In this document: piece by piece, positions 1 through 61,050 of the stretch | Numbering within the stretch: position 1 is the stretch's first letter | Layout of the letters: each line of letters begins with the position of its first letter | Assembly (NCBI GenBank): GCA_030645575.1 | Contig: JAUSMJ010000031.1 | Span: forward strand, 1-64,000 | From: Caulobacter sp. | GTDB lineage: Bacteria > Pseudomonadota > Alphaproteobacteria > Caulobacterales > Caulobacteraceae | Direction of reading: 5' to 3' | Length of the DNA: 64,000 nucleotides | Position numbers and translations under genes: made by a program | Notes under the pieces: model-generated | The model's input: only the letters and a program-made list of their open reading frames with translations | Told to the model about the DNA's origin: nothing | The model's database searches: none

Positions 1-1240
1 GCTGACCGAGCCGTGGTCGAACCGGACGGTCGTCCAGTTCGAGGTGGTGTGGCAGTTCTCGCAGGCCGCCGGGGAGGCGATGAGGGTCGCCGGGTTGCCG
101 GGGGCGGAGGTGCCGTTGTGGCAGCTGGCGCAGGTTCCGCTGACCGAGCCGTGGTCAAAGCGGACCGTGCTCCAATTGGACGTCGTGTGGCAGTTGTCGC
201 AGGCGGCTGACGTCGCGATGTGCGTCGCCGGCTTGCCCGGGGCGGTGGTCCCGTTGTGACAACTGGCGCAGGTCCCGGAAACCGAGCCGTGGTCGAACCG
301 GACGGTCGTCCAGTTCGAGGTGGTGTGGCAGTTCTCGCAGGCCGCCGAGGTGGCGATGTGCGTCGCCGGTTTGCCAGGGGCGGTGGTGCCGTTGTGACAG
401 CTGGCGCAGGTCCCCGTGACGGAGCCATGGTCGAACCGGACCGTGCTCCAGTTCGAGGTGGTGTGACAGTTCTCGCAGGCCGCCGAGGTCGCGATGTGGG
501 TCGCTGGTTTGCCGGGGGCGGTGGTCCCGTTGTGACAACTGGCGCAGGTCCCGGAAACCGAGCCGTGGTCGAACCGGACCGTCGTCCAGTTCGAGGTGGT
601 GTGGCAGTTCTCGCAGGCGGCCGATGTCGCGATGTGGGTCGCTGGCTTGCCGGGCGCGGTGGTCCCGTTGTGGCAACTGGCGCAGGTCCCGGAGACCGAG
701 CCGTGGTCGAACCGGACGGTCGTCCAGTTGGACGTTGTGTGGCAGTTGTCGCAGGCAGCCGAGGTGGAGACGTGCCCGCTCGGCTTACCCTTTGCCGTCG
801 CGCCATTGTGGCAACTGGCGCAGGTCCCGGTGACGGAACCGTGGTCGAACCGGACGGTCGTCCAGTTCGAGGTGGTGTGGCAGTTGTCGCAGGCCGCGGA
901 GGTGGCGATATGACCGCTCTGCTTGCCCGTGGCGGTGGTCCCGTTGTGGCAGGACGCGCAGCTTCCGCTGATGTCGGTATGATCGAACCGGGCGCCGCCC
1001 CAGCTCCTGCTCGTGTGGCAGGAGGCGCAGTCCGCCGTCGTCTTCAGGTGGTTGGCGGGCTTGCCGGGCGCCATCGTTCCGTTGTGGCAGCTGGCGCAGT
1101 CGCCCTCGGCGTCGCTGTGATTGAAGCGCGCTTCGCTCCAGACCACCGGCCCGTGGCAGTCGTCGCACTGGCCCCTTGTCGGGACGTGGCGGGGTGGCTT
1201 GCCGGGCGCGCGCTTGCCGTCGTGGCAGCTCGCGCATTCG
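1..1240 (-). repeat. 138-bp tandem repeat array inside the multiheme gene
   Basis: The trinucleotides encoding the FDH motif recur at 13, 151, 289, 427, 565, 703, 841, 979 and 1117, an exact 138-bp period (46 codons). Within each unit the CXXCH codons recur every 69 bp, from 49 to 1222. Units at 1-910 are nearly identical to each other; those toward the gene start have diverged. The array continues past the left edge. It is coding, in frame and without spacers, so it is not CRISPR. Confidence 0.95.
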
Positions 1241-1485
1241 CGTGGGGTCGACTTGAAGACGCCGCCGGTATGACAGCTCTCGCAGGTTACGGTCTTGTGG
1301 GCGTCGGTGAGCGGGAAGCCGGTCTTGAGGTGGTCAAACCCGGCCGGAACGGCGGACGGCTTGGACGGCGCGGCGATGCTCTGCGAGGCGACGCCGAGGA
1401 ATGCGAGGATCAGAACCGCGAAGAGCAACGCGAGACGACGGCAGGGAACTGCCGCAAAGCCTCCATGCGCGCGCTCAAGGGTCAT
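1..1485 (-). CDS. Multiheme cytochrome c with tandem two-heme repeats (partial, at least 19 hemes)
   Basis: Secreted c-type cytochrome of the doubled-CXXCH type. The frame opens at ATG 1485 behind GAGG and stays open for 495 codons to the left edge, so the C-terminus is missing. Residues about 15-38 form a signal peptide (RRLALLFAVLILAFLGVA). There are 19 visible CXXCH heme sites. The distal 18 are spaced exactly 23 residues apart, because the protein is built from a 46-residue unit with a CASCH and a CENCH or CDNCH. Each unit also has two further histidines (in RFDH and near PGKPATH), which could be the second axial ligands. It lies 123 bp downstream of the 24-heme gene on the same strand, so co-transcription is likely. 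Electron storage or conduction in the periplasm or at the cell surface is inference; the partner is unknown. Confidence 0.9.
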   Translation of the reverse strand, partial: MTLERAHGGFAAVPCRRLALLFAVLILAFLGVASQSIAAPSKPSAVPAGFDHLKTGFPLTDAHKTVTCESCHTGGVFKSTPRECASCHDGKRAPGKPPRHVPTRGQCDDCHGPVVWSEARFNHSDAEGDCASCHNGTMAPGKPANHLKTTADCASCHTSRSWGGARFDHTDISGSCASCHNGTTATGKQSGHIATSAACDNCHTTSNWTTVRFDHGSVTGTCASCHNGATAKGKPSGHVSTSAACDNCHTTSNWTTVRFDHGSVSGTCASCHNGTTAPGKPATHIATSAACENCHTTSNWTTVRFDHGSVSGTCASCHNGTTAPGKPATHIATSAACENCHTTSNWSTVRFDHGSVTGTCASCHNGTTAPGKPATHIATSAACENCHTTSNWTTVRFDHGSVSGTCASCHNGTTAPGKPATHIATSAACDNCHTTSNWSTVRFDHGSVSGTCASCHNGTSAPGNPATLIASPAACENCHTTSNWTTVRFDHGSVS

Positions 1486-1608
1486 CGAATCCTCAACCCG
1501 CGGACAGAGTCCGCGCAGATTCGCAACCTTCGTTCCCCACGCCTAACCTAGCCGCAAAGACCTTACGAAAGCTAAGGTCAAATGCTCGAGTGGCCGGGAA
1601 ATCATGGC

Positions 1609-3372
1609 TCAAAATGAGGGGTGGATGGCCCGGAAGTCACTCGTGGTGTGACACTGGCCGCATCCTGGCCCGAACGCGCCCTGGTGAATGTCCTCGGCCT
1701 GGTGGCAGTTTCCGCAGGACGCCACCGGGCGCGGCTTTCCGGGCCGGTGGCAGGAACCGCAGGCCAGATCCGTGTGACGACCGTCGAGCGGGAACGCCGT
1801 GCGGCCGTGATCAAAGGTCCAGTGCTCCCAGCCGCCCGGATTGTGACAGCCCGCGCAGTCGCCCTTGTAGGCGCCTTTGTGGGGGTCGTCCTCGCGGTGG
1901 CACCCGGCGCAGTCCGTCGGCGCGTCCTTGAAGCGCGGACTCTGGTGGCATGTCGCGCAGGCCAGACCCGCGTGTTTGCCGACCAGCGGGAAGGCGCTCA
2001 GGCCGTGATCGAACCGCACCGGGCTCTTCCAGGTCACGGGGGCGTGGCAGCTGGCGCAGTCGGAGCCCAGCTGGCCGACGTGCGAATCGTCGGGGCGATG
2101 GCAGTCGATGCAGGCGGTCCCGAGCCGGACTTCCCGGGGCGGCTGCTTGTGGCAGGTCGCGCAGGCGATCCCGCCATGGGCGCCGGTTAGCGGAAAGCGG
2201 GTCTGGCGATCATGGTCGAACGTCGCCGTCTTCCAGCTGGTCGTCTGGTGGCACTGCTCACAGGTCGTCCCGTTGCCGCCCTTGTGGACGTCATCTCCGG
2301 CGTGACAGCTGACGCAGGTTGTCGCCCGGGCAGGTTCGCGGGCGGGGGCGGGGCCATGACAAGCCCCGCACGTCAGGGCCCTGTGTCCGCCCGACAGCGC
2401 GAAGCCCGTCCGGCCGTGATCGAACCGCGTCACCTTCCAGCCGCTGGCGTTGTGACAGTCGGCGCAGGCCGGGCCGAGGCGACCGGCGTGGAGGTCCTTG
2501 TCGCGGTGACAGCCAATGCAGGCGGGCTGTGTTCCCCGGTAGCGACCCTGGGCGTGACAGCTGTCGCAGGCGAGCCTGGCGTGGGCGCCGCCGAGCGGAA
2601 AACCCGTGCGGCCATGGTCGAAGCGGGCCGGCTTCCAGGCCACCGTGCCATGGCAACTGGCGCAGGACGGGCCCAGGGTCCCCTTGTGGGCGTCGTCTTT
2701 CGCGTGACAGGAGGCGCAGGCGGAGGACGCGCCCTGGAAGGTCTTGTCCGCGTGGCAGGTCAGGCAGGCCGGGCGGGCATGGCCGCCGACGAGGGGGAAT
2801 CCGGTCGAGGCGTGGTTGAACCGGACCTCCTTCCAGCTCGTCTCGTTGTGGCAGCTGGCGCATCCTGGCCCCAGCTTGCCCTTGTGAGGGTCCTTGCCGG
2901 CATGACAGCTCGCGCAGGCGGCCGGAGCGGCGCGGAATTTCGCGCCCGGCTTGTGGCAACTCGCACAGGCGACTCGCAGGTGGCCGCCCTTGAGGGGGTA
3001 GTCGGTCAGGGCATGGTTGAAGGCCGCCGGATCCATCCGGACCAGTCGGCCGTTCCGACCGATGTGATCAGTGTGGCAGCTGCTGCAGACCGCTCCTGGA
3101 ATCTGCCGGTTGCGGCCATGATAGCCGGTGCGGGCGGCGATATCGGCCGCGACCGGCTTGTGGCAGCTGAGGCACAGGCCGCTCTGCGCGTCCTTTTTGA
3201 ACGACTGGTGGCAGGACTGGCAGCGCGCCTCGAACCGCGCGTGCGCCGTCGCCAGCGGGCCTGGTGAGACCAGCTTCTCGATCAGTGTCTGGGCCGACGA
3301 CGTCGTCGACAGGCCCAGGCAAAGCGCAAGCAGCAGGCCGAACAGACTGAGAAGGCGCGAGGCGGCGGGCAC
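1609..3372 (-). CDS. 24-heme secreted cytochrome c
   Basis: A 587-residue c-type cytochrome with a signal peptide (residues 1 to about 27, ending near TTSSAQ) and 24 CXXCH sites. They fall into eight units of three hemes. Units 2-8 are about 66 residues each and begin with F(D/N)H, then a GxH about ten residues on, then three CXXCH, with a (D/S)xHKG-like histidine between the second and third. Three conserved non-motif histidines per three hemes suggest bis-histidine ligation. Start is GTG 3372, 6 bp after the upstream membrane protein ends, so the two are probably co-transcribed. No catalytic domain is recognisable, so it is more likely an electron carrier or wire than an enzyme. Multiheme cytochromes of this size are unusual for aerobic Caulobacterales; substrate unknown. 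Confidence 0.93.
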   Translation of the reverse strand: MPAASRLLSLFGLLLALCLGLSTTSSAQTLIEKLVSPGPLATAHARFEARCQSCHQSFKKDAQSGLCLSCHKPVAADIAARTGYHGRNRQIPGAVCSSCHTDHIGRNGRLVRMDPAAFNHALTDYPLKGGHLRVACASCHKPGAKFRAAPAACASCHAGKDPHKGKLGPGCASCHNETSWKEVRFNHASTGFPLVGGHARPACLTCHADKTFQGASSACASCHAKDDAHKGTLGPSCASCHGTVAWKPARFDHGRTGFPLGGAHARLACDSCHAQGRYRGTQPACIGCHRDKDLHAGRLGPACADCHNASGWKVTRFDHGRTGFALSGGHRALTCGACHGPAPAREPARATTCVSCHAGDDVHKGGNGTTCEQCHQTTSWKTATFDHDRQTRFPLTGAHGGIACATCHKQPPREVRLGTACIDCHRPDDSHVGQLGSDCASCHAPVTWKSPVRFDHGLSAFPLVGKHAGLACATCHQSPRFKDAPTDCAGCHREDDPHKGAYKGDCAGCHNPGGWEHWTFDHGRTAFPLDGRHTDLACGSCHRPGKPRPVASCGNCHQAEDIHQGAFGPGCGQCHTTSDFRAIHPSF

Positions 3373-3378
3373 GGGGCG

Positions 3379-4242
3379 TCAGTAGAGGTGAACGGCGACG
3401 ATGTGAATGATCACCGTCGATACCAGGATTATGAACAGCGGCACGTGCAGGACATGCCACAACGAAAACAGCCGCTCGTAGAGGCCCAGGGAGGCCGCCC
3501 GTCGAACGGCCCGATGGTAGTCGCCGAGCTGCCTCAGCGCCTCGCCGCGACGCGCCTTCAGCGTTCTGGCGTCCCATTGACTCGCGGCTGCCTGCCGGCC
3601 CAGCGCCGCATCGATCAGCGTCATGGCGACCTTGCGGCCGCGGCGGATCTCGCCGCCGACGGACAGGGCTCGTCCAAGGGCCTGCCGCAGCGTCCGGCTC
3701 GGCGTCAGAACCCGGGATTCAAAGGTCTCGACCTCGGCCCGCCAGGCGTCCGAGGCCGCGAGGCCGCCGCCCAGCTGGTCGCGCGAGCCCGTCGCCTCTT
3801 CCCGCAGGGTGCGGGCCTCCAGGCGCTGGCCATACAGTCCGCGGTGGACCCGCCCATAGAGATAGCGGCCGACCAGCCCGCTGCCGGCGACGGTGAGCAT
3901 CGAGACGAAGGCGACCGTGGCGTTGGCGGACCGGAGGATGAAGTCCGAATGGATGACGATCAGCGCCGGGCCGAGAATGCCCAGAATCATATGCCAGCGA
4001 AACCAGCCCGACGCGGCGCCCCAGCCGCGCATGAACCGAAGCCGCTTGCGAAGCGGGTAGCCCAGCAGGGCGACCATCATCAGCGCGCCCGTAATTCCGA
4101 TGGCGTAGCCGGGGCCGCGCTCGGCCTCCAGGAACGCGTCCTCCCGGTGCAGCCAGGCCCAGCCGACGGTCGCCGACGTGCTCGCGAGAAACGCCGTGAT
4201 GGCCAGCGCGCCGCCGCCATTGCCGCCCGATCGATCCCTCAC
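3379..4242 (-). CDS. Integral membrane protein, cytochrome b-like, partner of the multiheme cytochromes
   Basis: A membrane protein with about four hydrophobic segments in the N-terminal half (the first around ALAITAFLASTSATVGWAWL), a soluble, arginine-rich helical stretch in the middle and one last segment at the C-terminus. Histidines lie in or beside membrane segments (RWHMILG, VIHSD, LWHVLHVP, IIHIVAVH), a pattern that could bind b-type heme. It is not a recognised family member to me. I chose GTG 4242 because GGGAG lies 5 nt upstream; ATG 4296 is an in-frame alternative with no visible ribosome site. It is the first gene of the minus-strand run leading into the 24-heme gene. The expected role, inferred from order and histidines, is passing electrons between the quinone pool or a cytoplasmic donor and the periplasmic hemes. 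Confidence 0.75.
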   Translation of the reverse strand: MRDRSGGNGGGALAITAFLASTSATVGWAWLHREDAFLEAERGPGYAIGITGALMMVALLGYPLRKRLRFMRGWGAASGWFRWHMILGILGPALIVIHSDFILRSANATVAFVSMLTVAGSGLVGRYLYGRVHRGLYGQRLEARTLREEATGSRDQLGGGLAASDAWRAEVETFESRVLTPSRTLRQALGRALSVGGEIRRGRKVAMTLIDAALGRQAAASQWDARTLKARRGEALRQLGDYHRAVRRAASLGLYERLFSLWHVLHVPLFIILVSTVIIHIVAVHLY

Positions 4243-4367
4243 AGCTGCTCCCGACACTTGACTCAACGGCGCCGCGTTTGCGACCAGACGACGCATAGAC
4301 TGGATAGCCTATGTTGTGACTCGTGATCGAAGCGCAATTTAGTCAAAATTCGGTAGAAATGTGGGTA

Positions 4368-4389
4368 TTGGCGCAAATTTTCGCGCCAA
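4368..4389. promoter_or_regulatory. Inverted repeat in the divergent cytochrome/ccmF intergenic region
   Basis: Perfect 7-bp arms TTGGCGC and GCGCCAA separated by 8 bp of AT-rich sequence. It lies between the divergent membrane-protein and ccmF genes, in one of the few AT-rich intergenic stretches of the window. It has operator geometry; the regulator is unknown. Confidence 0.5.
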
Positions 4390-4390
4390 A

Positions 4391-4419
4391 GATGCCCATT
4401 TTGAGTATGTGTGGGCATC
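4391..4419. promoter_or_regulatory. Second inverted repeat upstream of ccmF
   Basis: Perfect 8-bp arms GATGCCCA and TGGGCATC, 13 bp apart, starting 1 bp after the previous inverted repeat and ending 35 bp before the chosen ccmF start. It could be a second operator or a leader hairpin for the ccm genes. Function is inferred from position only. Confidence 0.45.
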
Positions 4420-4454
4420 GTGACTATTAAAGCATGCAGCCGGGAGTGGTGTTC

Positions 4455-6443
4455 ATGATTGCCGAGGTCGGTCGGTTCTGTTTGATCCTGGCTCTCATTA
4501 TCACCTCGGTGCAGGTCGTCGCGGGTCTATGGGGCGCCCGGCGCCGGAGCGCGCGGCTGATGACCGTCACCACCTCGGCGGCCCTCGCGCAGTTCATGTT
4601 CATCGCGCTCGCCTTCGCCCTGCTGGTCTGGCTCTTCGTGGTCTCGGACTTCTCGGTGATGGTCGTGGCGGCCAATTCGGCCACCATCAAGCCGATGTTC
4701 TACAAAATCACCTCGACCTGGGGTAATCACGAGGGGTCGATGCTCCTGTGGGTGCTCATCCTGGCCTTTTTCGGCGCGGCGATCGGCATGTTCGGACGCA
4801 ACATGCCCGCGCCGTTCAAGGCCCGGGTGCTTGGCGTTCAGGGCCTGATCAGTCTCGGGTTTCTCGCCTTCATCATCTTCACCTCCAGCCCGTTCGCGCG
4901 CCTGTTCCCGGTTCCGGTCGAAGGCGCGGGCTTCAATCCCCTGCTGCAGGATCCCGGTCTCGCGGCGCACCCGCCGCTTCTGTATCTGGGCTACGTCGGC
5001 TTCTCGACGGCCTTTTCGTTCGCCATCGCGGCGCTCATCGAGGGACGGTCCGACACCGTCTGGGTCCGCTACGCCCGGCCCTGGATCATCATCGCCTGGA
5101 TCTGCCTGACCATCGGCATCACCCTGGGATCGCTGTGGGCCTATTACGAGCTCGGCTGGGGCGGCTGGTGGTTCTGGGACCCGGTCGAGAACGCCTCACT
5201 GATGCCCTGGCTGCTGGGAACTGCGCTCGTCCACTCGGCGCTGGTGGTCGAACGCCGCTTCGCCCTGGTGCGCTGGACCATCCTGTTGGGCATCCTGACC
5301 TTTTCCATGAGCCTGCTGGGCACCTTCGTGGTGCGCTCCGGCATTCTGACCAGCGTGCACGCCTTCGCCGTCGATCCGGCGCGCGGCGCCTTCATCCTTG
5401 TCCTGCTGGTGCTGGCTACCGGCGGCGGACTGGCGCTCTACGCGATCCGCTCGCCCACGCTCGGCGCGGGCCGCGTGTTCAGCCTGGTCAGTCGGGAGGG
5501 CAGTCTGGTCCTCAACAACATCCTGCTGGTGACCGTCACCGGCACGGTGTTCCTCGGCACCTTCTATCCGCTGCTCATCGATCTGCTGACCGAGGACAAG
5601 ATTTCGGTCGGCGCGCCGTTCTACGCCATGACCTTCGTGCCAATGGCCGCGCCCCTGCTGCTGGTCATGGTGATCGGCCCGATGCTCAGTTGGCGGCGGG
5701 ATTCCGGTCAGGGGCTGCTGGGCCGTCTCGCGCCGGCGCTGTTCGTCGGCTTCACGGTGCTGGTGCTGGTCGCGGCGGGGACCCATGGCGCCAAGGTGAT
5801 CGCGGCGCTCTGGCTGGCGATGGCGGCCTGGATCGTCGTCGGGTCGCTGATGATCCTGGTCCGCCGCACCCGCGTGGGGCAGGTCTCGCTCCCGGAGTCC
5901 CTCACTCTGCTGAAGGCCCTGCCACCGGCGACCTTCGGCCTGGTGCTGGCGCATGCCGGGATCGGCATGCTGGTCGCGGGCCTGGCCGGCGGCGCGCTGT
6001 TCAAGCAGGAAGGCGTGGCCATGCTGGGCGCCGGACAGAGCGTCCCGTTCATTGGCCGCACGCTGACACTGACCGGAGTCCAGCCCGGCCGGGAGGCCAA
6101 CTACGAGTTCGTCCGGGGCCGTATTGAGATCCGCCGGGGCGCGGGCAAGCCGGGCCTGCTGTTCCCCGAACGCCGCTTCTACCCGGAACGACAGTCCGAC
6201 ACGACCGAGGCCGGGGTTCGGGTGACGCCGCTGGGCAACCTCTATGTCGCGCTGGGCGACCAGGCCGAGGACGGTCGCTGGACGGTCCGCTACTACAGTC
6301 ATCCCCTTGCCGTCTGGATCTGGCTGGGTGGCGGCGTGATGGCGCTGGGCGGCGGCGTGGCGCTGTTCGATCGCCGCAACTGGCTCACCCCGGAACGCCA
6401 GCCCGCGCGGGAGGTCCAGACCTCCGGGAGCGCGCCGGCATGA
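4455..6443 (+). CDS. ccmF: Cytochrome c heme lyase subunit CcmF
   Basis: Polytopic membrane subunit of the System I heme lyase, which attaches heme to CXXCH apocytochromes in the periplasm. The tryptophan-rich WWD signature (GWGGWWFWDPVENASLMPWL) is intact, and the many membrane segments and 662-residue length fit the family. ATG 4455 gives the usual CcmF start (MIAEVGRFCLILAL) and has GGGAG upstream; ATG 4434 is in frame but lacks a ribosome site. The stop overlaps ccmG by ATGA. ccmE, which commonly precedes ccmF in alphaproteobacteria, is absent here; the gene instead faces the multiheme cytochrome genes. This arrangement recalls dedicated lyases such as NrfEFG, but whether another ccm set exists cannot be seen. 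Confidence 0.96.
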   Translation: MIAEVGRFCLILALIITSVQVVAGLWGARRRSARLMTVTTSAALAQFMFIALAFALLVWLFVVSDFSVMVVAANSATIKPMFYKITSTWGNHEGSMLLWVLILAFFGAAIGMFGRNMPAPFKARVLGVQGLISLGFLAFIIFTSSPFARLFPVPVEGAGFNPLLQDPGLAAHPPLLYLGYVGFSTAFSFAIAALIEGRSDTVWVRYARPWIIIAWICLTIGITLGSLWAYYELGWGGWWFWDPVENASLMPWLLGTALVHSALVVERRFALVRWTILLGILTFSMSLLGTFVVRSGILTSVHAFAVDPARGAFILVLLVLATGGGLALYAIRSPTLGAGRVFSLVSREGSLVLNNILLVTVTGTVFLGTFYPLLIDLLTEDKISVGAPFYAMTFVPMAAPLLLVMVIGPMLSWRRDSGQGLLGRLAPALFVGFTVLVLVAAGTHGAKVIAALWLAMAAWIVVGSLMILVRRTRVGQVSLPESLTLLKALPPATFGLVLAHAGIGMLVAGLAGGALFKQEGVAMLGAGQSVPFIGRTLTLTGVQPGREANYEFVRGRIEIRRGAGKPGLLFPERRFYPERQSDTTEAGVRVTPLGNLYVALGDQAEDGRWTVRYYSHPLAVWIWLGGGVMALGGGVALFDRRNWLTPERQPAREVQTSGSAPA

Positions 6444-6991
6444 CCCTGCCCAAACCTGTCGTGCTGCTCGCCGCCATCGCGCCGGTCGCCGTGTTCATCG
6501 TCCTGGCCATCGCCCTGGCGTTCGGCCTGAGCAATGACCCGGCGGCCCTGCCGTCGGTGCTGGTGGGCAAGCCCGCCCCCACTTTCGCGCTGGGGCCCGT
6601 CCGCGAGAACGACACTGGCTTTTCCACCGCGGACATCACCGGCAAGGTGACGGTGATCAATATCTTTGGCTCCTGGTGCTCGGCCTGCCGGCTGGAGCAT
6701 CCCACGCTGATGGACCTCGCGGCCCGGGGCGTGAAGATTCACGGCATCGACTGGAAGGACGACCCGGCCGACGGCGCCGCGTGGCTCGCCCGGTTCGGGG
6801 ATCCCTACGCCCGCGTCGGCAACGACCAGACAGGCCGTCTGGCGCTCGACCTGGGGGTCTCCGGGGCGCCCGAGACCTTCATCATCGATAAGACCGGACG
6901 CATTCGCTACAAGCTCGTCGGCCCGATCACCCCCGAGCGCTGGCGCGACGAGATGGCGCCCCTGATCGCGAAGTTGGAGGCGGGGCAATGA
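6440..6991 (+). CDS. ccmG: Periplasmic thioredoxin CcmG/DsbE
   Basis: Membrane-tethered periplasmic thiol-disulfide oxidoreductase that keeps apocytochrome CXXCH cysteines reduced for heme attachment. An N-terminal membrane anchor (residues about 8-30) is followed by a thioredoxin fold with the active site WCSACRLEHP near residue 78 and the cis-proline loop GAPETF. The family usually has WCxPC, so the Ser-Ala dipeptide between the cysteines is a variation that may shift the redox potential. It overlaps ccmF by 4 bp and ccmH by 4 bp, so the genes are translationally coupled. Length (183 aa) is normal. Confidence 0.94.
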   Translation: MTLPKPVVLLAAIAPVAVFIVLAIALAFGLSNDPAALPSVLVGKPAPTFALGPVRENDTGFSTADITGKVTVINIFGSWCSACRLEHPTLMDLAARGVKIHGIDWKDDPADGAAWLARFGDPYARVGNDQTGRLALDLGVSGAPETFIIDKTGRIRYKLVGPITPERWRDEMAPLIAKLEAGQ

Positions 6992-7437
6992 CCAGTCCCT
7001 TGCGCCACGCCGTGGGCGCCGCCCTCGTGCTGGCGATGTTGATGACGCCGGTTGTCTCGTTGGCCGTCGAGCCGAACGAGATGCTCCAGGACCCGACGCT
7101 CGAGGCCCGGGCCGAAACCCTGAGCAAGGAACTGCGCTGCGTCGTCTGCCAGAACCAGAGCATCGACGCCTCGTCGGCGCCGCTCGCGCGGGACATGCGG
7201 CTGCTCGTCCGTGAACGGATCGCCGCCGGCGACACAGACGTTCAGGCCAAGGCTTATCTCGTTGAGCGCTACGGCAATTTCGTCCTGCTCAAGCCGCCGT
7301 TCCAGGCCGACACGCTGCTGTTGTGGTTCGGCCCGCTGTTGATCCTGGTCGTGGCGGGCGTGGCCCTGCTGATGGCCGCGCGCACCGGCGCGCCCGATGA
7401 CACCGACGACCTCGCGCCGGATATGGAAGACCTCTGA
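6988..7437 (+). CDS. ccmH: Cytochrome c maturation protein CcmH (CycL)
   Basis: Periplasmic-facing membrane-anchored thiol protein of the heme lyase complex, which forms mixed disulfides with apocytochromes. It has a signal peptide (residues 1 to about 26), the signature LRCVVCQNQSI and one C-terminal membrane helix (about residues 108-130). At 149 aa it is the short CcmH/CycL form, with the TPR portion encoded separately as ccmI. It overlaps ccmG by 4 bp and ccmI by 1 bp (TGATG). Confidence 0.95.
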   Translation: MTSPLRHAVGAALVLAMLMTPVVSLAVEPNEMLQDPTLEARAETLSKELRCVVCQNQSIDASSAPLARDMRLLVRERIAAGDTDVQAKAYLVERYGNFVLLKPPFQADTLLLWFGPLLILVVAGVALLMAARTGAPDDTDDLAPDMEDL

Positions 7438-8528
7438 TGCCTGTATGGATTGTCTATCTGCTGCTGGCGGTCCTGGCGGCCGCGGTGATCGCCGCGCCGC
7501 TGCTGCTGGCGAAACGGCCCACGGCCGACGAGCCCGCCCCGGCCGTTGCGCCGGAAGAGGCCCCGCCGCCGGCCGGCGCACCGTCCCCGTCGCTGACCGC
7601 CCGCTTTGCCGCTCACCGGACGCCGATCCTCGTCGGCGGCGGCGTGGTCGCCGTGCTGGTCGCCGCGGTCGCGCTGTTCCTGGCGACGGGAGAGCCGCCC
7701 CCGCCGCCCGCCGCCGTTCCGCCCGCGGGGGCGTCCGCCGCCGGGGCCGGCCTGCCGGACGTCGATACGATGATCGACCGGCTGGCCAAACGCCTTGAAG
7801 CCTCGCCGAACGACGCCGAGGGCTGGCGGATGCTGGGCTGGTCCTACTTCGAGACCCGGAAGTACCCGGAGGCGGTCACGGCCTATGCCAAGGCCGTGGC
7901 GCTGGCGCCGCGCGACGCGGGCTTCCAGTCCGCCTATGGCGAGGCCCAGGTCAAGGTCGCCGGCGATGTGGTCACCCCCGCCGCCGAGAAGGCCTTCCGG
8001 GCGGCGCTGGCGGCGGATTCCCGGGATGAGCGGGCCCGCATGTACCTGGCCCGGCTCCGGCAGGCCGGCGGCGACCCGACGGGCGCGATCAACGACCTGT
8101 TCGCCATCCTCGCGACGGCCGCGCCCGACTCCCGGGCAGCCCCCGCCGTCCGCGCGGAAATCCGTCGCATCGCATCGGCCAGTGGCGTGGATATCTCGGG
8201 CCGGCTTCCGCCCGAACCCGAACCCGAACCCGAGCCCGCGGCCGCGACCGTCGCCGGACCGACCGCCTCCGACGTGGCCGCCGCCCGGCAGCTTCCGGCC
8301 GAGGATCAGCAGGCGATGATCGGCGGCATGGTCGGTCGCCTCGAAGCCCGCCTGGCGGCTTCGCCAAGGGATGTCGATGGCTGGATCATGCTGATGCGCT
8401 CGCGCAAGACCCTCGGCCAGGACGACCTGGCCCGGGCCGCGCGCGAAAAGGCCCTGGGCGTCTTCAGCGACGACGCGGCCGCGAAGGCGCGCCTGACGGC
8501 CGCCGCCCGCGACCTTGGCGTGAACTGA
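7437..8528 (+). CDS. ccmI: Cytochrome c biogenesis TPR protein CcmI (CycH)
   Basis: Apocytochrome-binding chaperone of the heme lyase. Two hydrophobic segments (about residues 3-22 and 61-82) flank a proline-rich loop. A tetratricopeptide domain follows (motifs around GWRMLGWSYFETRKYPEAV and the next 100 residues) and then an EPEPEPEP linker. Its ATG overlaps the ccmH stop. In the family the TPR region captures the C-terminus of apocytochromes; here a multiheme substrate is suggested by the neighbouring genes but not shown. Confidence 0.92.
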   Translation: MPVWIVYLLLAVLAAAVIAAPLLLAKRPTADEPAPAVAPEEAPPPAGAPSPSLTARFAAHRTPILVGGGVVAVLVAAVALFLATGEPPPPPAAVPPAGASAAGAGLPDVDTMIDRLAKRLEASPNDAEGWRMLGWSYFETRKYPEAVTAYAKAVALAPRDAGFQSAYGEAQVKVAGDVVTPAAEKAFRAALAADSRDERARMYLARLRQAGGDPTGAINDLFAILATAAPDSRAAPAVRAEIRRIASASGVDISGRLPPEPEPEPEPAAATVAGPTASDVAAARQLPAEDQQAMIGGMVGRLEARLAASPRDVDGWIMLMRSRKTLGQDDLARAAREKALGVFSDDAAAKARLTAAARDLGVN

Positions 8529-8535
8529 CGGCGCC

Positions 8536-9846
8536 ATGATGATCGACGAGCGCTGGCTGTTCTATCTCGCCCCGCTGGTCTTCGTCGTCGTCATCCATCT
8601 GCTCTTGCGTCGCAGGTCGGAGCGCAAGAGCCTCGCCCTGCTGAGCGAGGCCCGCGCCAGCGGGCTCGACGAGCCGACCTCGCTGCATCCGTTGATCGAT
8701 CCGGTGCTGTGCATCGGCTGCGGGGCCTGCGTGAGGGCCTGCCCGGAGGGCGACGTGCTGGGCCTGATCCGCGGCAAATCCCATCTCGTCGCGCCGAGCG
8801 AGTGCATCGGCCACGGCGCCTGCCGCGCGGCCTGCCCCGTCGGCGCCATCACCCTGGTGTTCGGCACCGAGCGACGGGGCGTCGAGCTTCCCCATGTGGG
8901 CCCCGACTTCCAGACCAACGTCCCGGGCCTCTACATCGCCGGGGAGCTGGGCGGCATGGGGCTGATCCGCAACGCCATCGAGCAGGGACAGCAGGCGATG
9001 GGCGAAATCGCCGGGCGGCTGAAGCAGGGCCGGCGCGACAGGTCGCTGGACGCGGATGTTATCGTTGTCGGGGCCGGGCCGGCGGGCATTTCGGCCAGTC
9101 TGGCGGCGAAGGTCGCGGGATTGCGCGCCGTGACCCTCGAACAGGAAGTGCTTGGCGGCACGGTCTCGCACTATCCGCGCGGCAAGCTGGTGATGACGGC
9201 GCCCGCGGTGCTCCCGGGCTACGGGAAGATGAAGTTCCGGGAGGTCGGCAAGGAGACCCTGCTGGACTTCTGGAAGGAGGTCATCGCCAGGGTCGGGCTG
9301 AAGATCGACTACGGCGAACGGGTCGAGGCGCTTGAGCGGGCGGACCACGGCTTCACCGTGCGCACGCCCGTGCGGACCCTGCGGGCGGCGGCGGTGCTGC
9401 TGGCGATTGGCCGGCGGGGCACGCCCAGGCGGCTGGATGTGCCGGGCGAGGACCTGTCCAAGGTCGTCTACCGGCTGATCGATCCGCGCCAGTATGCCGG
9501 TCGGGATGTGCTGGTGGTCGGCGGCGGCGACAGCGCGCTGGAGGCCGCCGCGACCCTCGTCGAGGAAACGGACGCCCGGGTGACCCTGGCCTACCGGGGC
9601 GCGGGCTTCGCCCGCGCGAAGGCGAAGAACCGGTCGCGCGTGGACGCCGCCCACGCGGCCGGCCGGCTGGGCCTGAAGATGGAGACCGAGGTCCGGCGGA
9701 TCGACCCGGAGACCGTCGAGCTCGAGCGAGCCGGACAGGTCGACCGTCTGGCGAACGACACCGTGATCATCTGTGCGGGCGGCGTCCTGCCGACGGACTT
9801 CCTCCGGTCGGTGGGAGTCGAGATCGAGATCCGGCGCGGCCGGTAG
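8536..9846 (+). CDS. Membrane-anchored 4Fe-4S / FAD-dependent oxidoreductase, apparently circularly permuted
   Basis: A 436-residue redox protein starting 7 bp after ccmI. Domains in order: a membrane anchor (residues 8-24), a two-cluster ferredoxin segment (C59, C62, C65, C69, then C90, H93, C96, C100), a segment reading TNVPGLYIAGELGG (127-140), an FAD Rossmann motif GAGPAG (179-184) and an NAD(P) motif GGGDSALE (about 327). In thioredoxin-reductase-like proteins the PGLYxAGD segment closes the C-terminus; here it comes before the Rossmann fold, and the C-terminus ends just where that segment would normally begin. The second ferredoxin motif has His in place of its second Cys. No redox-active CxxC is seen between the domains. 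Likely it moves electrons between NAD(P)H and the membrane; donor and acceptor are inference. Confidence 0.85.
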   Translation: MMIDERWLFYLAPLVFVVVIHLLLRRRSERKSLALLSEARASGLDEPTSLHPLIDPVLCIGCGACVRACPEGDVLGLIRGKSHLVAPSECIGHGACRAACPVGAITLVFGTERRGVELPHVGPDFQTNVPGLYIAGELGGMGLIRNAIEQGQQAMGEIAGRLKQGRRDRSLDADVIVVGAGPAGISASLAAKVAGLRAVTLEQEVLGGTVSHYPRGKLVMTAPAVLPGYGKMKFREVGKETLLDFWKEVIARVGLKIDYGERVEALERADHGFTVRTPVRTLRAAAVLLAIGRRGTPRRLDVPGEDLSKVVYRLIDPRQYAGRDVLVVGGGDSALEAAATLVEETDARVTLAYRGAGFARAKAKNRSRVDAAHAAGRLGLKMETEVRRIDPETVELERAGQVDRLANDTVIICAGGVLPTDFLRSVGVEIEIRRGR

Positions 9847-9929: not shown

Positions 9930-10019
<90 letters not shown>

Positions 10020-15548: not shown

Positions 15549-15829
15549 AGCGGCGGGTCGAAATCTCGATCTTGGCGCGACGTGATATCGCGCGCCTATC
15601 CGACTTTCTCAGCCCGAAGAATCCCAGAGCGTGGAAGGCCGCCGTCGCGGCAATCAGCAACAGGCTAAGGTCGCTCAACCAGATGTCCGAGCGTGGTCAT
15701 TTCTCGCCGGATGGCGACCTGCGCGAAATGTTCGTGCGCTTCGGCCGCGCCGGCTACGTCATCCAGTACCGGACCACGCCTGGGGAAGTGTTCATCCTGC
15801 GCATCTTCCACAGCCTCGAAGAGCGGTGA
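15545..15829 (+). CDS. RelE/ParE superfamily toxin
   Basis: A 94-residue basic protein with the ParE/RelE layout: [15 protein letters not shown] helix, then [10 protein letters not shown] and [21 protein letters not shown] strands, the usual C-terminal core. Start is TTG 15545, overlapping the antitoxin stop. ParE-type toxins poison DNA gyrase and RelE types cleave mRNA; the sequence alone does not separate these. Confidence 0.82.
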
Positions 15830-15884
15830 CACACCGGCCCCCATCCGCTATCGCACGGCGGCGAATTTCCGGGAGCTCAGCGCC

Positions 15885-16799
15885 TTGACCGACAAGACCG
15901 AGGAAGCCGGCTGGGCGACCGCCAAGACCCTCGCCGAAGCCCTGCCCTACATCCAGATCTACGACCGCGAGACGGTGGTGATCAAATACGGCGGCCATGC
16001 CATGGGCCAGGACGACGTGGCCCGGCTGTTCGCGGCCGACGCCGTGCTGCTCAAGCTGATGGGCGTGCACCCGGTGGTGGTCCACGGCGGCGGGCCGCAG
16101 ATCTCGGCCATGCTCGACCGGGCCGGCGTCAAGTCGACCTTCGTCGATGGCCTGCGGGTGACCGACGAGGCGACCATGGAGGTGGCCGAGATGGTCCTCT
16201 CCGGCGCGATCAACAAGGAAATCGCCAACTGGATCACCCTGGCCGGCCGCGAGGCGGACGTGCGGGGCGTGGGTCTGTCGGGCAAGGACGCGCGGCTGAT
16301 CACCGTGACCAAGGCCAAGCGGACGAAGAAGGACCCGGACAGCAACATCGAACAGGTCGTCGATCTGGGCTTCGTCGGCGAGCCGCAGAAGATCGATCCG
16401 GCCCTGATCAAGGTGCTGATCGACTCGGAGAAGGACTACATCCCGGTCATCGCCCCGATCGGCGTCTCGGAGTCCGGCCAGACCTTCAACGTCAACGCCG
16501 ACACCGTGGCGGGCGCCCTGGCCGGGGCGCTGAAGGCCAAGCGCATGCTGCTGCTGACCGACGTCGCCGGGGTCAAGGACGCCAACGGCGACCTGATCCG
16601 CCAGATGACCGTGGCCGAGGCGTTCGAGCTGATCCGTACGGGCGTGGCCACCGGCGGCATGATCCCCAAGCTGGAGACGGCCATCGCCGCCGTCGATGCG
16701 GGGGTCGAGGCGGTGGTCATCCTCGATGGCCGTCGGCCGCACGCCATGCTGGTCGAGCTGTTCACCGAGCATGGCGCAGGAACCCTGGTGAAGGCGTGA
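15885..16799 (+). CDS. argB: Acetylglutamate kinase
   Basis: Second enzyme of arginine biosynthesis, phosphorylating N-acetylglutamate. Amino-acid-kinase motifs are clear: [10 protein letters not shown] near residue 30, [10 protein letters not shown], the [11 protein letters not shown] loop, and [23 protein letters not shown], then TGGMIPKL. The start is TTG 15885 with GGGAG nine bases upstream, giving 304 aa; upstream in-frame ATGs lie inside the toxin gene. The stop overlaps the next gene by 4 bp. Confidence 0.95.
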
Positions 16800-17461
16800 C
16801 CGACCTTACCCATATCGACACCTGGCTATTCGATCTCGACAACACCCTCTACCCGGTCGAGAGCGAGGTCATGACCCTGGTCGCCGGGCGGATGACCGAC
16901 TTCATGGAGAAGATCACCGGTCTGCCGCGCGATCAGGCCCGGGCGATCCAGAAGCGTTACTACGAGGAGCACGGCACGACCCTGGCCGGCCTGATGGCCA
17001 ACAACCACGGTGTCGATCCCGAGGACTTCCTCACCACCGTCCACGATATCTCGCTGGACGCCCTGTCGCCCGACCCCGCGCTGCTGGCGGGCCTTCAACG
17101 CCTGCCCGGGCGGCGGCTGGTGTTCACCAACGGCTCGGCCGCCCACGCCGTGCGCGTGCTGGAGCGGATGGAGATCGCCCACGCCTTCGAGGATATCTTC
17201 CACATCGCCGCCGCCGACTACATTCCCAAGCCGGCCCGCTCGACGTTCGAGAAGATGATGACCCTCCACGCGGTCGGCGCGGAGGGCGCGGCCTTCTTCG
17301 AGGACAGCGAGAAGAATCTCGCGCCGGCCGCCGAGCTGGGCATGACCACGGTGCTGGTCGGCCCGCATGCCGCCGCCTCGACGGCCGCCTTCATCAACCA
17401 CCGCACCAACGACCTCGCCGCCTTCCTCAATGGCGCGCGGGTGAGGGGATCCGACGCATGA
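16796..17461 (+). CDS. HAD-family pyrimidine 5'-nucleotidase
   Basis: A 221-residue HAD hydrolase with motif I DLDNTLYP (about residues 13-20), motif II VFTNGSA, motif III lysine in [13 protein letters not shown] and motif [11 protein letters not shown]. This is the SDT1/TIGR01993-like pyrimidine 5'-nucleotidase pattern. Start is GTG 16796, overlapping argB by 4 bp; the stop overlaps dapD by 4 bp, so the three are one operon. Confidence 0.88.
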
Positions 17462-18306
17462 CCGCCGTGACGCTCGCCGACCTGGAAACCGAGATCGAAG
17501 CCGCCTGGGAGGCCCGCGACGGCGTCTCGCCGGACACCCAGGGCCCCGTCCGCACGGCCATCGAGGAGACCCTGTCGCTGCTCGATTCCGGCCAGGTGCG
17601 CGTGGCCGAGAAGGTCGATGGCGCCTGGGTGGTCCGGCAATGGGCCAAGAAGGCGGTGCTGCTGTCCTTCCGTCTGAACCCCAACGTCGTGATGCGCGCC
17701 GGAACGCTGGGTGGCGCGGTCGGGCCCTGGTGGGACAAGGTGGCCAACAAGTTCGACGGCTGGGAAGCGCCGCAGTTCGAGGCCGCCGGCTTCCGCGCGG
17801 TTCCCGGCGCCATCGTCCGCCGCGGCGCCTATGTGGCGAAGAACGTCATCCTGATGCCCTCGTTCGTGAACATCGGCGGCTATGTCGATGAGGGGACCAT
17901 GGTCGATACCTGGGTCACGGTCGGCTCCTGCGCCCAGATCGGCAAGCGGGTCCACCTGTCGGGCGGCGTCGGCATCGGCGGCGTGCTTGAGCCCCTGCAG
18001 GCCAACCCGACGATCATCGAGGACGACTGCTTCATCGGCGCCCGCTCGGAAGTGGTCGAGGGCGTCATCGTCGGCCAGGGCAGCGTGCTGTCGATGGGCG
18101 TGTTCCTGACCGCCACGACCAAGATCGTCGATCGCAAGACCGGCGAGGTCCATCGCGGCTACGTCCCGCCCTACAGCGTCGTGGTGCCCGGCAGCCTGCC
18201 TGACCCGCATGGCTTCGGCCCTAGCCTCGCCTGCGCGGTGATCGTCAAGACGGTCGATGCCCAGACCCGGTCCAAGACCTCGATCAACGACCTGTTGCGC
18301 GACTAG
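17458..18306 (+). CDS. dapD: Tetrahydrodipicolinate N-succinyltransferase
   Basis: Lysine/diaminopimelate pathway enzyme that transfers succinyl from succinyl-CoA to tetrahydrodipicolinate. The left-handed beta-helix hexapeptide region shows [20 protein letters not shown] and [20 protein letters not shown], hallmark DapD sequence. Length 282 aa is typical. It is coupled by ATGA overlap to the nucleotidase and stands about 2 kb upstream of dapE, two steps of the same pathway. Confidence 0.97.
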
Positions 18307-58852: not shown

Positions 58853-59179
58853 ATGTCTGAACCCGCCATCCTCGACACGCTCGCCCCGCCGGCGACCGAG
58901 GCCGAGATCATCAATGTCGGCCTGCTCAGCGCCGCCCGGATCGGCGCGCGCGGCGTGATCGCCCGGGTCTCGGCCTTCGAGGGCGCCCTGCCCGCCGCCG
59001 AGCTGGAGCGCCGCCTGCTGGAGCTGGGCTTTGTCGAGGGCGCGACGGTCGAGGTGCTCGAGGAAGGCCTGTTCGGCCGAGACCCGATCGCCGTGCGGCT
59101 GGACGACATGCGCGTGGCTATCCGCCGGCGCGAGGCGGCCGCCATCCAGATCCGTTTCGACCCGAAGGGCGACGCTTGA
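58853..59179 (+). CDS. feoA: Ferrous iron transport protein A
   Basis: A 108-residue SH3-like protein that supports FeoB. The core, from about residue 40, reads ALPAAELERRLLELGFVEGATVEVL and RDPIAVRLDDMRVAIRRREA. About 35 extra residues precede it. ATG 58853 (MSEPAIL) is preferred because the upstream ATG 58835 almost touches the Fur box. Overlaps feoB by 4 bp (TTGA). Confidence 0.92.
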   Translation: MSEPAILDTLAPPATEAEIINVGLLSAARIGARGVIARVSAFEGALPAAELERRLLELGFVEGATVEVLEEGLFGRDPIAVRLDDMRVAIRRREAAAIQIRFDPKGDA

Positions 59180-61050
59180 CCGACACCGCCCTCGCCCCAA
59201 CGCGCCTGGCGCTGGTGGGCAACCCAAACAGCGGCAAGACCGCCCTGTTCAACGCCCTGACCGGCAGCCGCCAGAAGGTCGCCAACTACGCCGGCGTGAC
59301 CGTCGAGCGGAAGGAGGGCGTGCTGACCTCGCCGTCCGGCCGGGTGATTCAAGTCATCGACCTGCCGGGCACCTACTCCCTGCGCGCCCGCAGCCCTGAC
59401 GAAGCGGTGACCCGCGACGCGGTGCTGGGCCGGCTGGCCGGCGAGACGCCGCCGGACGTCATCGTCTGCGTGGCCGACGCGACCAACCTGCGGCTGGTGC
59501 TGCGACTGGCGCTGGAACTCAAACAGGTGGGCCGGCCGTTCGTGCTGGCGCTGAATATGTTCGACATCGCCCAGCGTCAGGGCCTGCGCATCGACCTGGA
59601 GGGCCTGTCGCGCGAGATCGGCGCGCCGATCGTCACCACGGTGGCCACGCGCAAGCGCGGCATCGAGGAGCTGGTCGCCCGGGCCGAGGCCCTGGCCGAC
59701 ACCATGCCCGTCGGCGAGAACGTCTGGCACGAGCCGTCGGCCGCCGAAATCCGTCACGCCCACGCCGAGGCCCAGCGCATCCTGAAGGCCCACGTTCGTC
59801 CGCCCGAGCGCCCCGACACATGGACCAGCCGCATCGACAGTGTGCTGCTGCATCCGGTCGGCGGCCTGCTGATCCTGTCGGCGGTGATGTTCATCATGTT
59901 CCAGGCGGTGTTCGCCTGGGCCACGCCCGTGGCCGACCTGATCGAGGCCGGGTTCACCTGGCTGGGCGGCGCGGTCGCGACGGTCACGCCCGAGGGCCTG
60001 CTGCGCAGCCTGCTGGTCGATGGCCTGATCGCCGGGGTCGGCAGCGTGCTGGTGTTCCTGCCGCAGATCCTGACGGTGTTCTTTTTCATCCTGCTGCTGG
60101 AAGACAGCGGCTACATGGCTCGCGCCGCCTTCCTGATGGACCGCATCATGGGCGCGGCCGGGCTGCACGGCCGGGCCTTCATTCCGCTGTTGTCGAGTCA
60201 CGCCTGCGCCATTCCCGGCGTCATGGCCGCGCGGGTCATCGACCAGAAGCACGACCGGCTGACGACCATCCTGATCGCGCCGCTGATGACCTGTTCGGCG
60301 CGGATCCCCGTCTACACCCTGATCATCGGCGCCCTGATCCCCCGGACCACGGTCTGGGGCTTCCTGAACCTGCAGGGGCTGGTGATGTTCGGCCTGTACG
60401 CCGCCGGCATCCTGTCGGGCCTGGTCGTGGCGACCGTGATCCGCACGGCGTTCTGGAGGAGCGCCTCGGAGCCCTTCATGATGGAGTTGCCGACCTATCG
60501 CTGGCCAGACCCGGAGAACGTCGCGCGCAACCTGATGCAGCGGGGGATGATCTTCATCAACCGCGCCGGACGGATCATCCTGCCGCTGATGGTGCTGGTC
60601 TGGGTGCTATCGACCTTCCCCTATCCGCCGCAAGGCGCGACGGGCCCGGCCATCGACTACAGCTTCGCCGGCATGATCGGCCACTTCATCCAGCCGCTGC
60701 TGGCGCCGATCGGCTTCAACTGGCAGATGTCGATCGCGCTGGTGCCGGGCATGGCCGCCCGCGAGGTCGCCGTGGCGGCGCTGGGCACGGTCTACGCGGT
60801 CGGCAATGTGGACGGCGCGGGCCAGGCGACCCTGGCCTCGATCCTCCACACCCAGTGGAGCCTGGCCACCGGCCTGTCATTCCTGGCCTGGTACGTGTTC
60901 GCCCCGCAGTGCGTGGCGACGCTGGGGGTGGTCAAGCGCGAGACCAACGGCTGGCTCTGGCCGGCCGTGATGTTCGGCTACATGTTCACCCTGGCCTACC
61001 TGGCCTCGCTGGCGACCTACTGGAGCGCGGTGGCGTTGGGCTGGGGGTAG
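59176..61050 (+). CDS. feoB: Ferrous iron transporter FeoB
   Basis: A 624-residue GTP-regulated Fe(II) permease. N-terminal G domain: GNPNSGKT, DLPGTYSL and the LNMFD base motif (N-x-x-D); a GDI-like helical segment; then the polytopic membrane domain with Gate motifs FIPLLSSHACAIPGVMAAR and LVPGMAAREVAVAALG. Start is TTG 59176 overlapping feoA. It is shorter than E. coli FeoB, lacking the extended C-terminal cytoplasmic region and feoC. Fur-controlled with feoA. Confidence 0.96.
   Translation: MTDTALAPTRLALVGNPNSGKTALFNALTGSRQKVANYAGVTVERKEGVLTSPSGRVIQVIDLPGTYSLRARSPDEAVTRDAVLGRLAGETPPDVIVCVADATNLRLVLRLALELKQVGRPFVLALNMFDIAQRQGLRIDLEGLSREIGAPIVTTVATRKRGIEELVARAEALADTMPVGENVWHEPSAAEIRHAHAEAQRILKAHVRPPERPDTWTSRIDSVLLHPVGGLLILSAVMFIMFQAVFAWATPVADLIEAGFTWLGGAVATVTPEGLLRSLLVDGLIAGVGSVLVFLPQILTVFFFILLLEDSGYMARAAFLMDRIMGAAGLHGRAFIPLLSSHACAIPGVMAARVIDQKHDRLTTILIAPLMTCSARIPVYTLIIGALIPRTTVWGFLNLQGLVMFGLYAAGILSGLVVATVIRTAFWRSASEPFMMELPTYRWPDPENVARNLMQRGMIFINRAGRIILPLMVLVWVLSTFPYPPQGATGPAIDYSFAGMIGHFIQPLLAPIGFNWQMSIALVPGMAAREVAVAALGTVYAVGNVDGAGQATLASILHTQWSLATGLSFLAWYVFAPQCVATLGVVKRETNGWLWPAVMFGYMFTLAYLASLATYWSAVALGWG

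Follow-up and report, generated by a model that had tools for sequence, protein, structure and literature searches.

By which route are electrons exchanged between the cytoplasm and a set of cytochromes that carries dozens of hemes? This question is raised by a gene cassette at positions 1 to 9846 of a 64,000-nucleotide stretch of Caulobacter sp. DNA (GenBank assembly GCA_030645575.1, contig JAUSMJ010000031.1, positions 1 to 64,000; hereafter the window). Here, two multiheme c-type cytochromes and an inner-membrane protein (IMP) are encoded divergently from ccmFGHI and a membrane-anchored flavoprotein with two Fe-S motifs (fp). The initial annotation of this region was correct as to the gene positions, the 24-heme cytochrome, the cytochrome with at least 19 hemes and the divergent ccmFGHI and fp genes, and nothing unrelated was seen between the cassette genes. 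Its description of the membrane protein as histidine-rich was overstated, there being 9 histidines in 305 residues. We consider it fairly probable that a porin-cytochrome conduit of the PCC3 type, a dedicated CcmFGHI set and fp as the cytoplasmic electron terminal constitute one system.

PCC3 is a putative porin-cytochrome conduit that was described by He et al. in 2017 (PMC5566968; this and the other papers are cited for their main texts). It was defined by a porin, an extracellular and a periplasmic multiheme cytochrome, and a conserved IMP of about 300 residues with five transmembrane helices, an SGXXG motif on helix 4 and a WX3HX13H motif on each of helices 3 and 5 (PMC5566968). The distal cytochrome is of low complexity and carries 10 to 35 hemes (PMC10734462, PMC5566968), and the periplasmic subunits of Gallionellaceae carry 21, 24 or 27 (PMC10734462). 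The window encodes an IMP of this length and with these motifs (WFRWH-13-H, SGLVG and WHVLH-13-H), the expected helices being present in its AlphaFold2 model, together with a many-heme proximal cytochrome and a low-complexity distal cytochrome. The distal protein has 19 CxxCH motifs in the 495 residues present and the proximal one 24 in 587, numbers that are far above chance because 0.24 and 0.35 motifs would be expected from their own compositions. Cytochrome c7/c3 repeats were recognised in these cytochromes with Pfam and NCBIfam models, and the distal one consists for 47% of Thr, Ser, Ala and Gly, with one heme per 26 residues. Among 58 uncut homologs of the IMP-proximal cytochrome, the number of hemes was 21 (27 loci), 18 (23 loci), 24 (6 loci), 23 (1 locus) or 33 (1 locus). 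Bradyrhizobium sp. STM 3843, which He et al. named among the PCC3 carriers (PMC5566968), is represented by one of the fp loci described below (L056), where IMP, fp and ccmFGHI are accompanied by a gene for 18 hemes and, at the edge of the locus, one for 14. Limimaricola variabilis CECT 8572 is another cultured carrier. Because the IMP motifs, the heme numbers and the STM 3843 locus agree, the cytochromes and IMP of the window are assigned to PCC3 on sequence grounds. The module had been put forward as undescribed, which does not hold for its cytochrome half.

Both WX3HX13H motifs and SGXXG were found in 62 of the 67 IMP open reading frames (ORFs) at 80 fp loci. The five exceptions comprise four incomplete ORFs (L025 twice, L035 and L076) and one with SGLIA (L049). 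The four membrane histidines are conserved across the IMP family. It should be noted, however, that the alignments A2 and A4 admitted only rows with both WX3HX13H motifs, to the exclusion of L025 (in two pieces), L035 and L076. The invariance of the histidines in A2 is therefore partly built in, and the fair figure is 62 of 67. No Pfam or NCBIfam model matched IMP at an E-value of 0.05, the ferric-reductase domain FRD included.

Table 1. Features of the cassette in the window, with the basis of each assignment
Feature	Positions	Strand	Basis or remark
Large multiheme c-type cytochrome, distal, putative extracellular PCC3 subunit, at least 19 CxxCH	1..1485	-	Cut by contig end
24-heme cytochrome, putative periplasm-spanning PCC3 subunit, 587 aa	1609..3372	-	CxxCH count, Pfam
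PCC3 inner-membrane protein (IMP), 305 aa, five predicted transmembrane helices, two WX3HX13H and SGLVG	3379..4296	-	Motifs, AlphaFold2 helices
Intergenic region between divergent transcription units, probable promoter region	4297..4433		Coordinates
CcmF paralog (heme lyase), PCC3-linked clade	4434..6443	+	CcmF_C, tree
CcmG/DsbE thiol-disulfide protein	6440..6991	+	TIGR00385 over cut-off
CcmH, CVVC motif	6988..7437	+	Pfam
CcmI/CycH-type TPR protein	7437..8528	+	PF23914
fp, 436 aa: membrane anchor, two 4Fe-4S motifs, permuted TrxR/FNR-type FAD-NAD(P) domain	8536..9846	+	Fer4 and Pyr_redox

Contig C28 of the draft genome (3.2 Mb) ends at base 1 of the window, so that the leftmost gene is truncated and nothing further to the left is visible in the assembly. 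The contig breaks inside a 138-bp tandem repeat (positions 3-951) within the distal cytochrome gene, and a search of the window's own genome for the rest of this cytochrome matched only contig C28. Complete homologs carry 23 hemes in a genome of the same order (G093) and 27 in one of the same family (G455). The gene that follows them in G455 and G093 encodes a barrel-like protein of 751 and 864 residues, respectively, with an apparent N-terminal periplasmic part and a C-terminal F. In Pfam searches, SPOR scored over the cut-off in G093, while TPR in both and OMP_b-brl_3 in G455 remained below it. By its sequence, this protein looks like an outer-membrane barrel in the PCC3 porin position, which is where, beyond the left edge, the initial annotation had advised looking for a porin or terminal reductase. 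A BamA-like gene, recognised by eye, is convergent on fp in G093 (L008 8112-10664). Far larger cytochromes were also seen: the distal one has 67 hemes at L095 and L097, both from Ctena clam symbiont genomes, and a Pseudorhodobacter metagenome-assembled genome (MAG) at L065 contains a 2005-residue ORF with 85 CxxCH motifs.

The combination of fp with PCC3 parts is not restricted to the window. By fp similarity, the cassette was found in G455, G093 and a genome of the same class (G337) in identical order, i.e. distal cytochrome, proximal cytochrome and IMP, then divergent ccmFGHI and fp; in G301 it is split across two short contigs, with part on each. When GTDB species genomes were scanned with an alignment of fp, at least 593 stretches were obtained, at least 572 of them fp relatives, and the best 80 loci were kept. 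IMP was found at 66 of these, a multiheme cytochrome with at least five hemes at 62, and at least one PCC3 part at 69; a low-sensitivity search gave a barrel match at 34. Where both flanks of fp reach 10 kb, as they do at 17 loci, IMP and a multiheme cytochrome are always present. Where at least 5.8 kb upstream was available, IMP was present in 38 of 42 loci, and one of the other four (L066) has a barrel match. The nearest IMP gene lies upstream of fp on the opposite strand in 58 of 66 loci. The view that the two halves of the cassette belong together is thus supported both by the common divergent order in the three relatives and by the 17 fully flanked loci.

This view is in line with the distribution of the two genes over genomes. 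In a sample of 398 Pseudomonadota genomes, exactly the same six, among them that of the window, contained IMP at E≤1e-40 and fp at E≤1e-80. A sample of 385 genomes from the class gave strong IMP matches (E≤1e-90) in four, which were also the four with fp, and weak ones of about 1e-22 in six more; the IMP cut-off of the second sample was chosen once the gap in the first had been seen. Identical sets for the five genomes besides the window's would arise by chance with a probability of about 1e-11 if the genomes were independent, which they are not. Each carrier has both genes on a single contig, except for G301, G515 and G806, where they are on two contigs whose breaks fall within the cluster or beside it. 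The IMP contigs of G515 and G806 end inside the distal cytochrome, as does the fp contig of G515, and the fp contig of G806 starts about 1 kb ahead of the porin. An unlinked co-retention of fp and IMP in G515 and G806 was considered and dropped, since these contigs break in or near the cluster. Within the family fp is sporadic, with 7 carriers among 299 genomes. The six family carriers with upstream sequence all have ccm genes there, and ccmF was reached in five (L157 being taken as a contig of L018). Among plasmids, fp was detected in 2 of 72,556 records at E≤1e-30. Judged by gene neighbourhood and genome distribution, fp is a recurring PCC3 partner.

The PCC3-linked CcmF looks like a second, dedicated copy by its sequence, in agreement with the dedicated heme lyase that the initial annotation had proposed. 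The window's genome has its second CcmF on contig C15, and two copies each are present in G455, G093, G337 and G301, i.e. in five of the five alphaproteobacterial carriers examined. A tree built from 31 CcmF sequences, five of them housekeeping sequences of the class, placed the PCC3-linked alphaproteobacterial copies in one clade of 18 (support 100/99), and the housekeeping copies stood apart from it (89/84). Three gammaproteobacterial CcmF encoded near fp grouped with ordinary gammaproteobacterial CcmF, and one CcmF each was found outside the class in G515, G804 and G806. Taken together, the tree and the counts suggest that the dedicated lyase is alphaproteobacterial, whereas fp is general. 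At the fp loci, ccmF was seen in 17 of 80, with flanks that are often cut. As to a heme lyase of the NrfEFG system, TIGR03145 scores below its cut-off (612 versus 927 bits), whereas the broader NF007691 passes (419 versus 394 bits). The clade of 18 includes L029, a MAG labelled Deltaproteobacteria, whose CcmF is near-identical to that of L039 (labelled Marinicaulis). The isolate names suggest one project, and the likeness suggests misbinning or a very recent transfer. Gene clusters of CcmH/NrfF and of CcmH/NrfG have been listed for iron-oxidising Gallionellaceae and as absent from Nitrotoga (PMC10734462, Table 2).

A PCC3-like operon was also found outside the Pseudomonadota, on plasmid pEMTOL02 of Emticicia oligotrophica (Bacteroidota; NC_018749.1, L149 7926-19724). 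It encodes, on one strand, a CcsA-type lyase, IMP, fp, a 23-heme and a 40-heme cytochrome, and a 538-residue barrel-like protein. The IMP is unannotated, has 281 residues and both motifs, and matched the profile with an E-value of 8.8e-43 in a search of seven proteins. The fp is 45% identical and is encoded inside the conduit operon, between IMP and the first multiheme gene. A related arrangement was seen in four of the six genomes with weak IMP matches (G193, G160, G354 and G222), where IMP adjoins a 10-heme cytochrome and a protein of about 800 residues with 28-33% identity to fp; G187 and G323 show no such flavoprotein on the short stretch beside the weak IMP. Two of the 800-residue proteins were analysed with Pfam and contain TrxR-like FAD, two cyclic-nucleotide-binding and 4Fe-4S domains. 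In IMP and cytochromes, these four clusters resemble PCC4, which has cytochromes of 4, 5 and 10 hemes and an IMP with PCC3-type motifs (PMC5566968); the full set of 4, 5 and 10 hemes was seen in G160 only. The cyclic-nucleotide-binding domains lie between the FAD and Fe-S domains at L140 and L141 (by similarity also at L143 and L144), and electron entry would possibly be gated by cyclic nucleotides there.

fp itself was modelled with AlphaFold2 from 79 rows (mean pLDDT 89). The Foldseek neighbours of its flavin part are YpdA/Bdr (nearest), thioredoxin reductases and TrxR-type ferredoxin-NADP reductases, with 7a7b as the best match (E 1.1e-20) and 3ab1 and 3lzw also matched. It remains below the cut-offs of TIGR04018 (150.5 versus 339.9 bits) and TIGR01292 (73.2 versus 343 bits). 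Its segments occur in swapped order: residues 175-430 align with residues 7-262 of the 800-residue G160 protein (112 bits), and residues 118-161 with residues 270-313 (44 bits, E 8e-9), a segment located after the NAD(P) part. The same swap was seen against the G193 and G354 proteins, and a further search gave a very weak second domain. When the permuted segment alone was searched against the PDB with phmmer, three weak matches were obtained (E 0.59-1.3), all at the corresponding late segment. These alignments indicate that fp is circularly permuted, with the last flavin-binding segment placed between the Fe-S domain and the GxGxxG motif. The flavin part lacks CxxC in all 80 sequences, which makes a thiol-reductase role unlikely, and the Fe-S clusters of fp itself would be the natural electron acceptor of its flavin.

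The second Fe-S motif of fp reads CIGHGACx3CP, with His in place of the second Cys, and C90, H93, C96 and C100 are invariant in 82 rows. One of the two seed patterns of the locus scan already contained this His. It is present in 13 of 14 fp sequences obtained by BLAST, HMM or tblastn, three of which are contigs that are also among the 80 loci, and the fourteenth (L159) is cut there. In the first Fe-S motif, the second Cys is replaced by Ser or Ala in several sequences. At the N-terminus, a hydrophobic helix is followed by basic residues, so that the domains should face the cytoplasm; a charge rule recognised this anchor in 70 and a simple hydropathy cut in 52 of 79 sequences (L087 excluded). 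The alignments A3 and A5 exclude L032 (one stop in the fp match) and L064 (a contig of G301), and A3 also excludes L018.

In the route that we infer for the favoured system, the CcmFGHI set would load the very large number of hemes onto the cytochromes, and NAD(P)H would reduce the FAD of fp and, through it, the two Fe-S clusters. From these, electrons would pass to a cytoplasmic-side heme b of IMP (H102/H284), on to a periplasmic-side heme b (H116/H298), along the 24-heme wire to the big cytochrome held by the outer-membrane barrel, and finally to an extracellular acceptor. The topology of IMP and the pairing of its hemes are predicted from motif and hydropathy. Movement of electrons from the cytosol to the periplasm would be favoured by the potential difference and by the membrane potential, which argues for an outward, non-conserving electron sink. 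Electron flow is probably outward. A bolder proposal, which we make tentatively and with less confidence than that of one system, is that fp and IMP are the two subunits of a transmembrane NAD(P)H dehydrogenase. It would be an analogue of NADPH oxidase, but one whose flavodomain is of the circularly permuted thioredoxin-reductase type and comes with its own Fe-S clusters. PCC3 would then be quinone-independent and discharge cytosolic reductant through more than 43 hemes, and different lineages would have attached lyases of their own (CcmFGHI in Alphaproteobacteria, a CcsA-type lyase on the Bacteroidota plasmid).

The most serious competing explanation is an uptake conduit, in which extracellular donors (Fe(II), Mn(II), electrodes or cells) feed the wire, quinone receives the electrons from IMP, and fp serves as a side branch for reverse-flow NAD(P)+ reduction or regulation. 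We regard it as unlikely, although it has the published PCC3 model behind it (PMC5566968), PCC3 is present in iron oxidisers (PMC10734462, PMC5566968), and one IMP copy is up-regulated in iron-oxidising cells of Sideroxydans CL21 (PMC12442390). In Sideroxydans ES-1, however, both PCC3 clusters are down-regulated on Fe(II) (PMC8788666). Moreover, the presence of fp and IMP in the same genomes is hard to explain for a side branch, and the reduction of NAD(P)+ from periplasmic cytochromes would be uphill in redox potential and against the membrane potential.

Several points weigh against outward flow from fp through a PCC3 conduit. This reading is built on sequence and predicted structure, published models route PCC3 electrons to quinone (PMC5566968), the up-regulation in CL21 suits uptake, and the published PCC3 descriptions name four genes (PMC10734462, PMC5566968, PMC8788666, PMC12442390). 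Since the AlphaFold2 model of IMP found no confident PDB match with Foldseek (best E 0.54), the assignment of two b hemes depends on the motif, and for fp Foldseek gave low TM-scores, with a maximum of 0.44 by query length. A search of the assembly with the G455 protein did not reveal the window's own porin, the contig being broken inside the distal cytochrome. G703 has two CcmF, neither of them within the PCC3 cluster. At 11 of the 80 fp loci no PCC3 part was found, every one of these having a flank of less than 3 kb. They include L084, L093 and L094, whose opposite flank spans 10 kb, and L028, L061 and L070, with 2.0-2.4 kb upstream and 7-10 kb downstream, and the IMP profile gave the same result for all six. 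Lastly, fp was checked for in Gallionellaceae genomes at one locus, that of a Gallionella MAG among the fp loci (L086).

A role of fp in maturation, with electrons delivered to the Ccm machinery (apocytochrome thiols or the heme iron of CcmF) instead of the conduit, appears improbable. It would account for the place of fp at the end of the ccmFGHI unit, both in the window and in relatives, and for G806, where fp adjoins the genome's only CcmF. However, the fp loci contain IMP much more often than ccmF (66 versus 17 of 80, with flanks that are often cut), the Emticicia fp is separated from its CcsA-type lyase gene by IMP, only 6 of the 398 sampled genomes have fp, and its flavin part is devoid of CxxC. 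Storage of electrons in the periplasm, or their conduction to another envelope enzyme with no extracellular path, is suggested by the heme number and by the lack of a visible porin in the window's own assembly, but it is very improbable given the barrel-like protein directly after the distal cytochrome in G455 and G093 and the matches to its relatives at 34 of 80 fp loci.

As to the wider neighbourhood, a Sel1/ankyrin-repeat protein with an apparent signal peptide is encoded directly downstream of fp in 53 of the 80 loci (e.g. L038 4899-6866) and is perhaps a periplasmic scaffold for large cytochromes. We did not make it a third partner of the system, since it is missing after fp in the window, L018, L019 and L020; the match in the window's own genome was weak and to a repeat stretch on contig C72. 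A tRNA-Ser(cga) gene lies about 84 bp downstream of fp (window 9930-10019, minus strand), and in G455, among 26 loci scanned, a tRNA-Arg (acg) gene takes its place about 28 bp downstream, which suggests that the cassette may have inserted beside tRNA genes. L018, with an fp that is 90% identical, has no tRNA gene on its 19 kb. Some 6-7 kb past fp, the window (15693-18303) and G455 (L014 871-3732) share genes for an amino-acid kinase, a HAD protein and THDPS. Judging from these common neighbours, the cassette occupies comparable chromosomal positions in the two genera, even though fp is lacking from 292 of the 299 family genomes. A FeoB-type ferrous iron transporter is encoded about 50 kb from the cassette (window 59176-61047).

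The PCC3 module itself is already known. Its partnership with fp, the CcmF clade, the permutation of fp and the tie to a CcsA-type lyase were not found in the PCC3 papers searched, figures and supplements apart. In the main text of PMC5566968, the terms CcmF, ferredoxin, flavoprotein, thioredoxin, pyridine, biogenesis and maturation are absent, while its figures and supplementary tables may show neighbours. In that of PMC10734462, ferredoxin and Ccm are mentioned for Rnf, in general tables and for the CcmH clusters that are enriched among iron oxidisers, and not for neighbours of PCC3. The main texts of PMC8788666 and PMC12442390 do not name fp or the CcmF clade as a PCC3 neighbour, passages from PMC12016527 and PMC13386937 tie neither these two nor a CcsA-type lyase to PCC3, and PMC9634551 has PCC3 and CcmF in unrelated passages. 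Among the open papers searched, none combines PCC3 with ankyrin, and He et al. alone combine PCC3, multiheme and NADPH.

PCC3 occurs in many environmental bacteria and has been listed by inference as a possible iron oxidase; fp bears on its inner-membrane end and on the direction of flow. It would offer a concrete electron donor or acceptor to assay, and directs attention to NAD(P)H-linked discharge in place of quinone-linked uptake. In addition, fp may be a better marker of PCC3 than the repetitive cytochromes, and the dedicated CcmF clade would represent a natural experiment on the maturation limits of very large multiheme proteins.

Compared with PCC3 as published (PMC5566968), the cassette has in common the porin (in relatives), a very large distal and an 18-24-heme proximal cytochrome, the motif-bearing IMP and the adjacency of these genes, and it adds fp and, in Alphaproteobacteria, the separate CcmFGHI set. 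With YpdA/Bdr and the TrxR-type ferredoxin-NADP+ reductases, fp shares the FAD/NAD(P) fold, but it is permuted, has no CxxC and carries a membrane anchor and two Fe-S motifs in the same polypeptide. NOX and ferric reductases have a cytosolic flavin/NAD(P) module. He et al. likened IMP to the FRD domain of these enzymes on account of two HX13H pairs on two helices (PMC5566968). Unlike them, IMP shows neither a Pfam FRD match nor a confident fold match, and the flavin module would be a separate TrxR-type Fe-S protein. MtrCAB, MtoAB and PioAB embody the idea of an inner-membrane donor, a periplasmic wire, a barrel and a surface cytochrome. In contrast to MtrCAB and MtoAB, the cassette has no decaheme cytochrome of the DmsE/MtrA type (TIGR03508 scores of 78.1 and 20.6 versus a cut-off of 192.2 bits). 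In NrfEFG, a second set of the CcmF/CcmH type is tied to particular cytochromes. This analogy, drawn in the initial annotation, stands in functional terms but does not extend to the heme motif, as CXXCK is absent from all eight cassette proteins. Finally, a redox protein with flavin and 4Fe-4S domains is encoded beside IMP in the PCC4-like clusters too, although there it has about 800 residues, contains cyclic-nucleotide-binding domains and is not permuted, whereas fp is. The PCC3 and PCC4-like loci therefore present two IMP families, each beside flavin/Fe-S modules.

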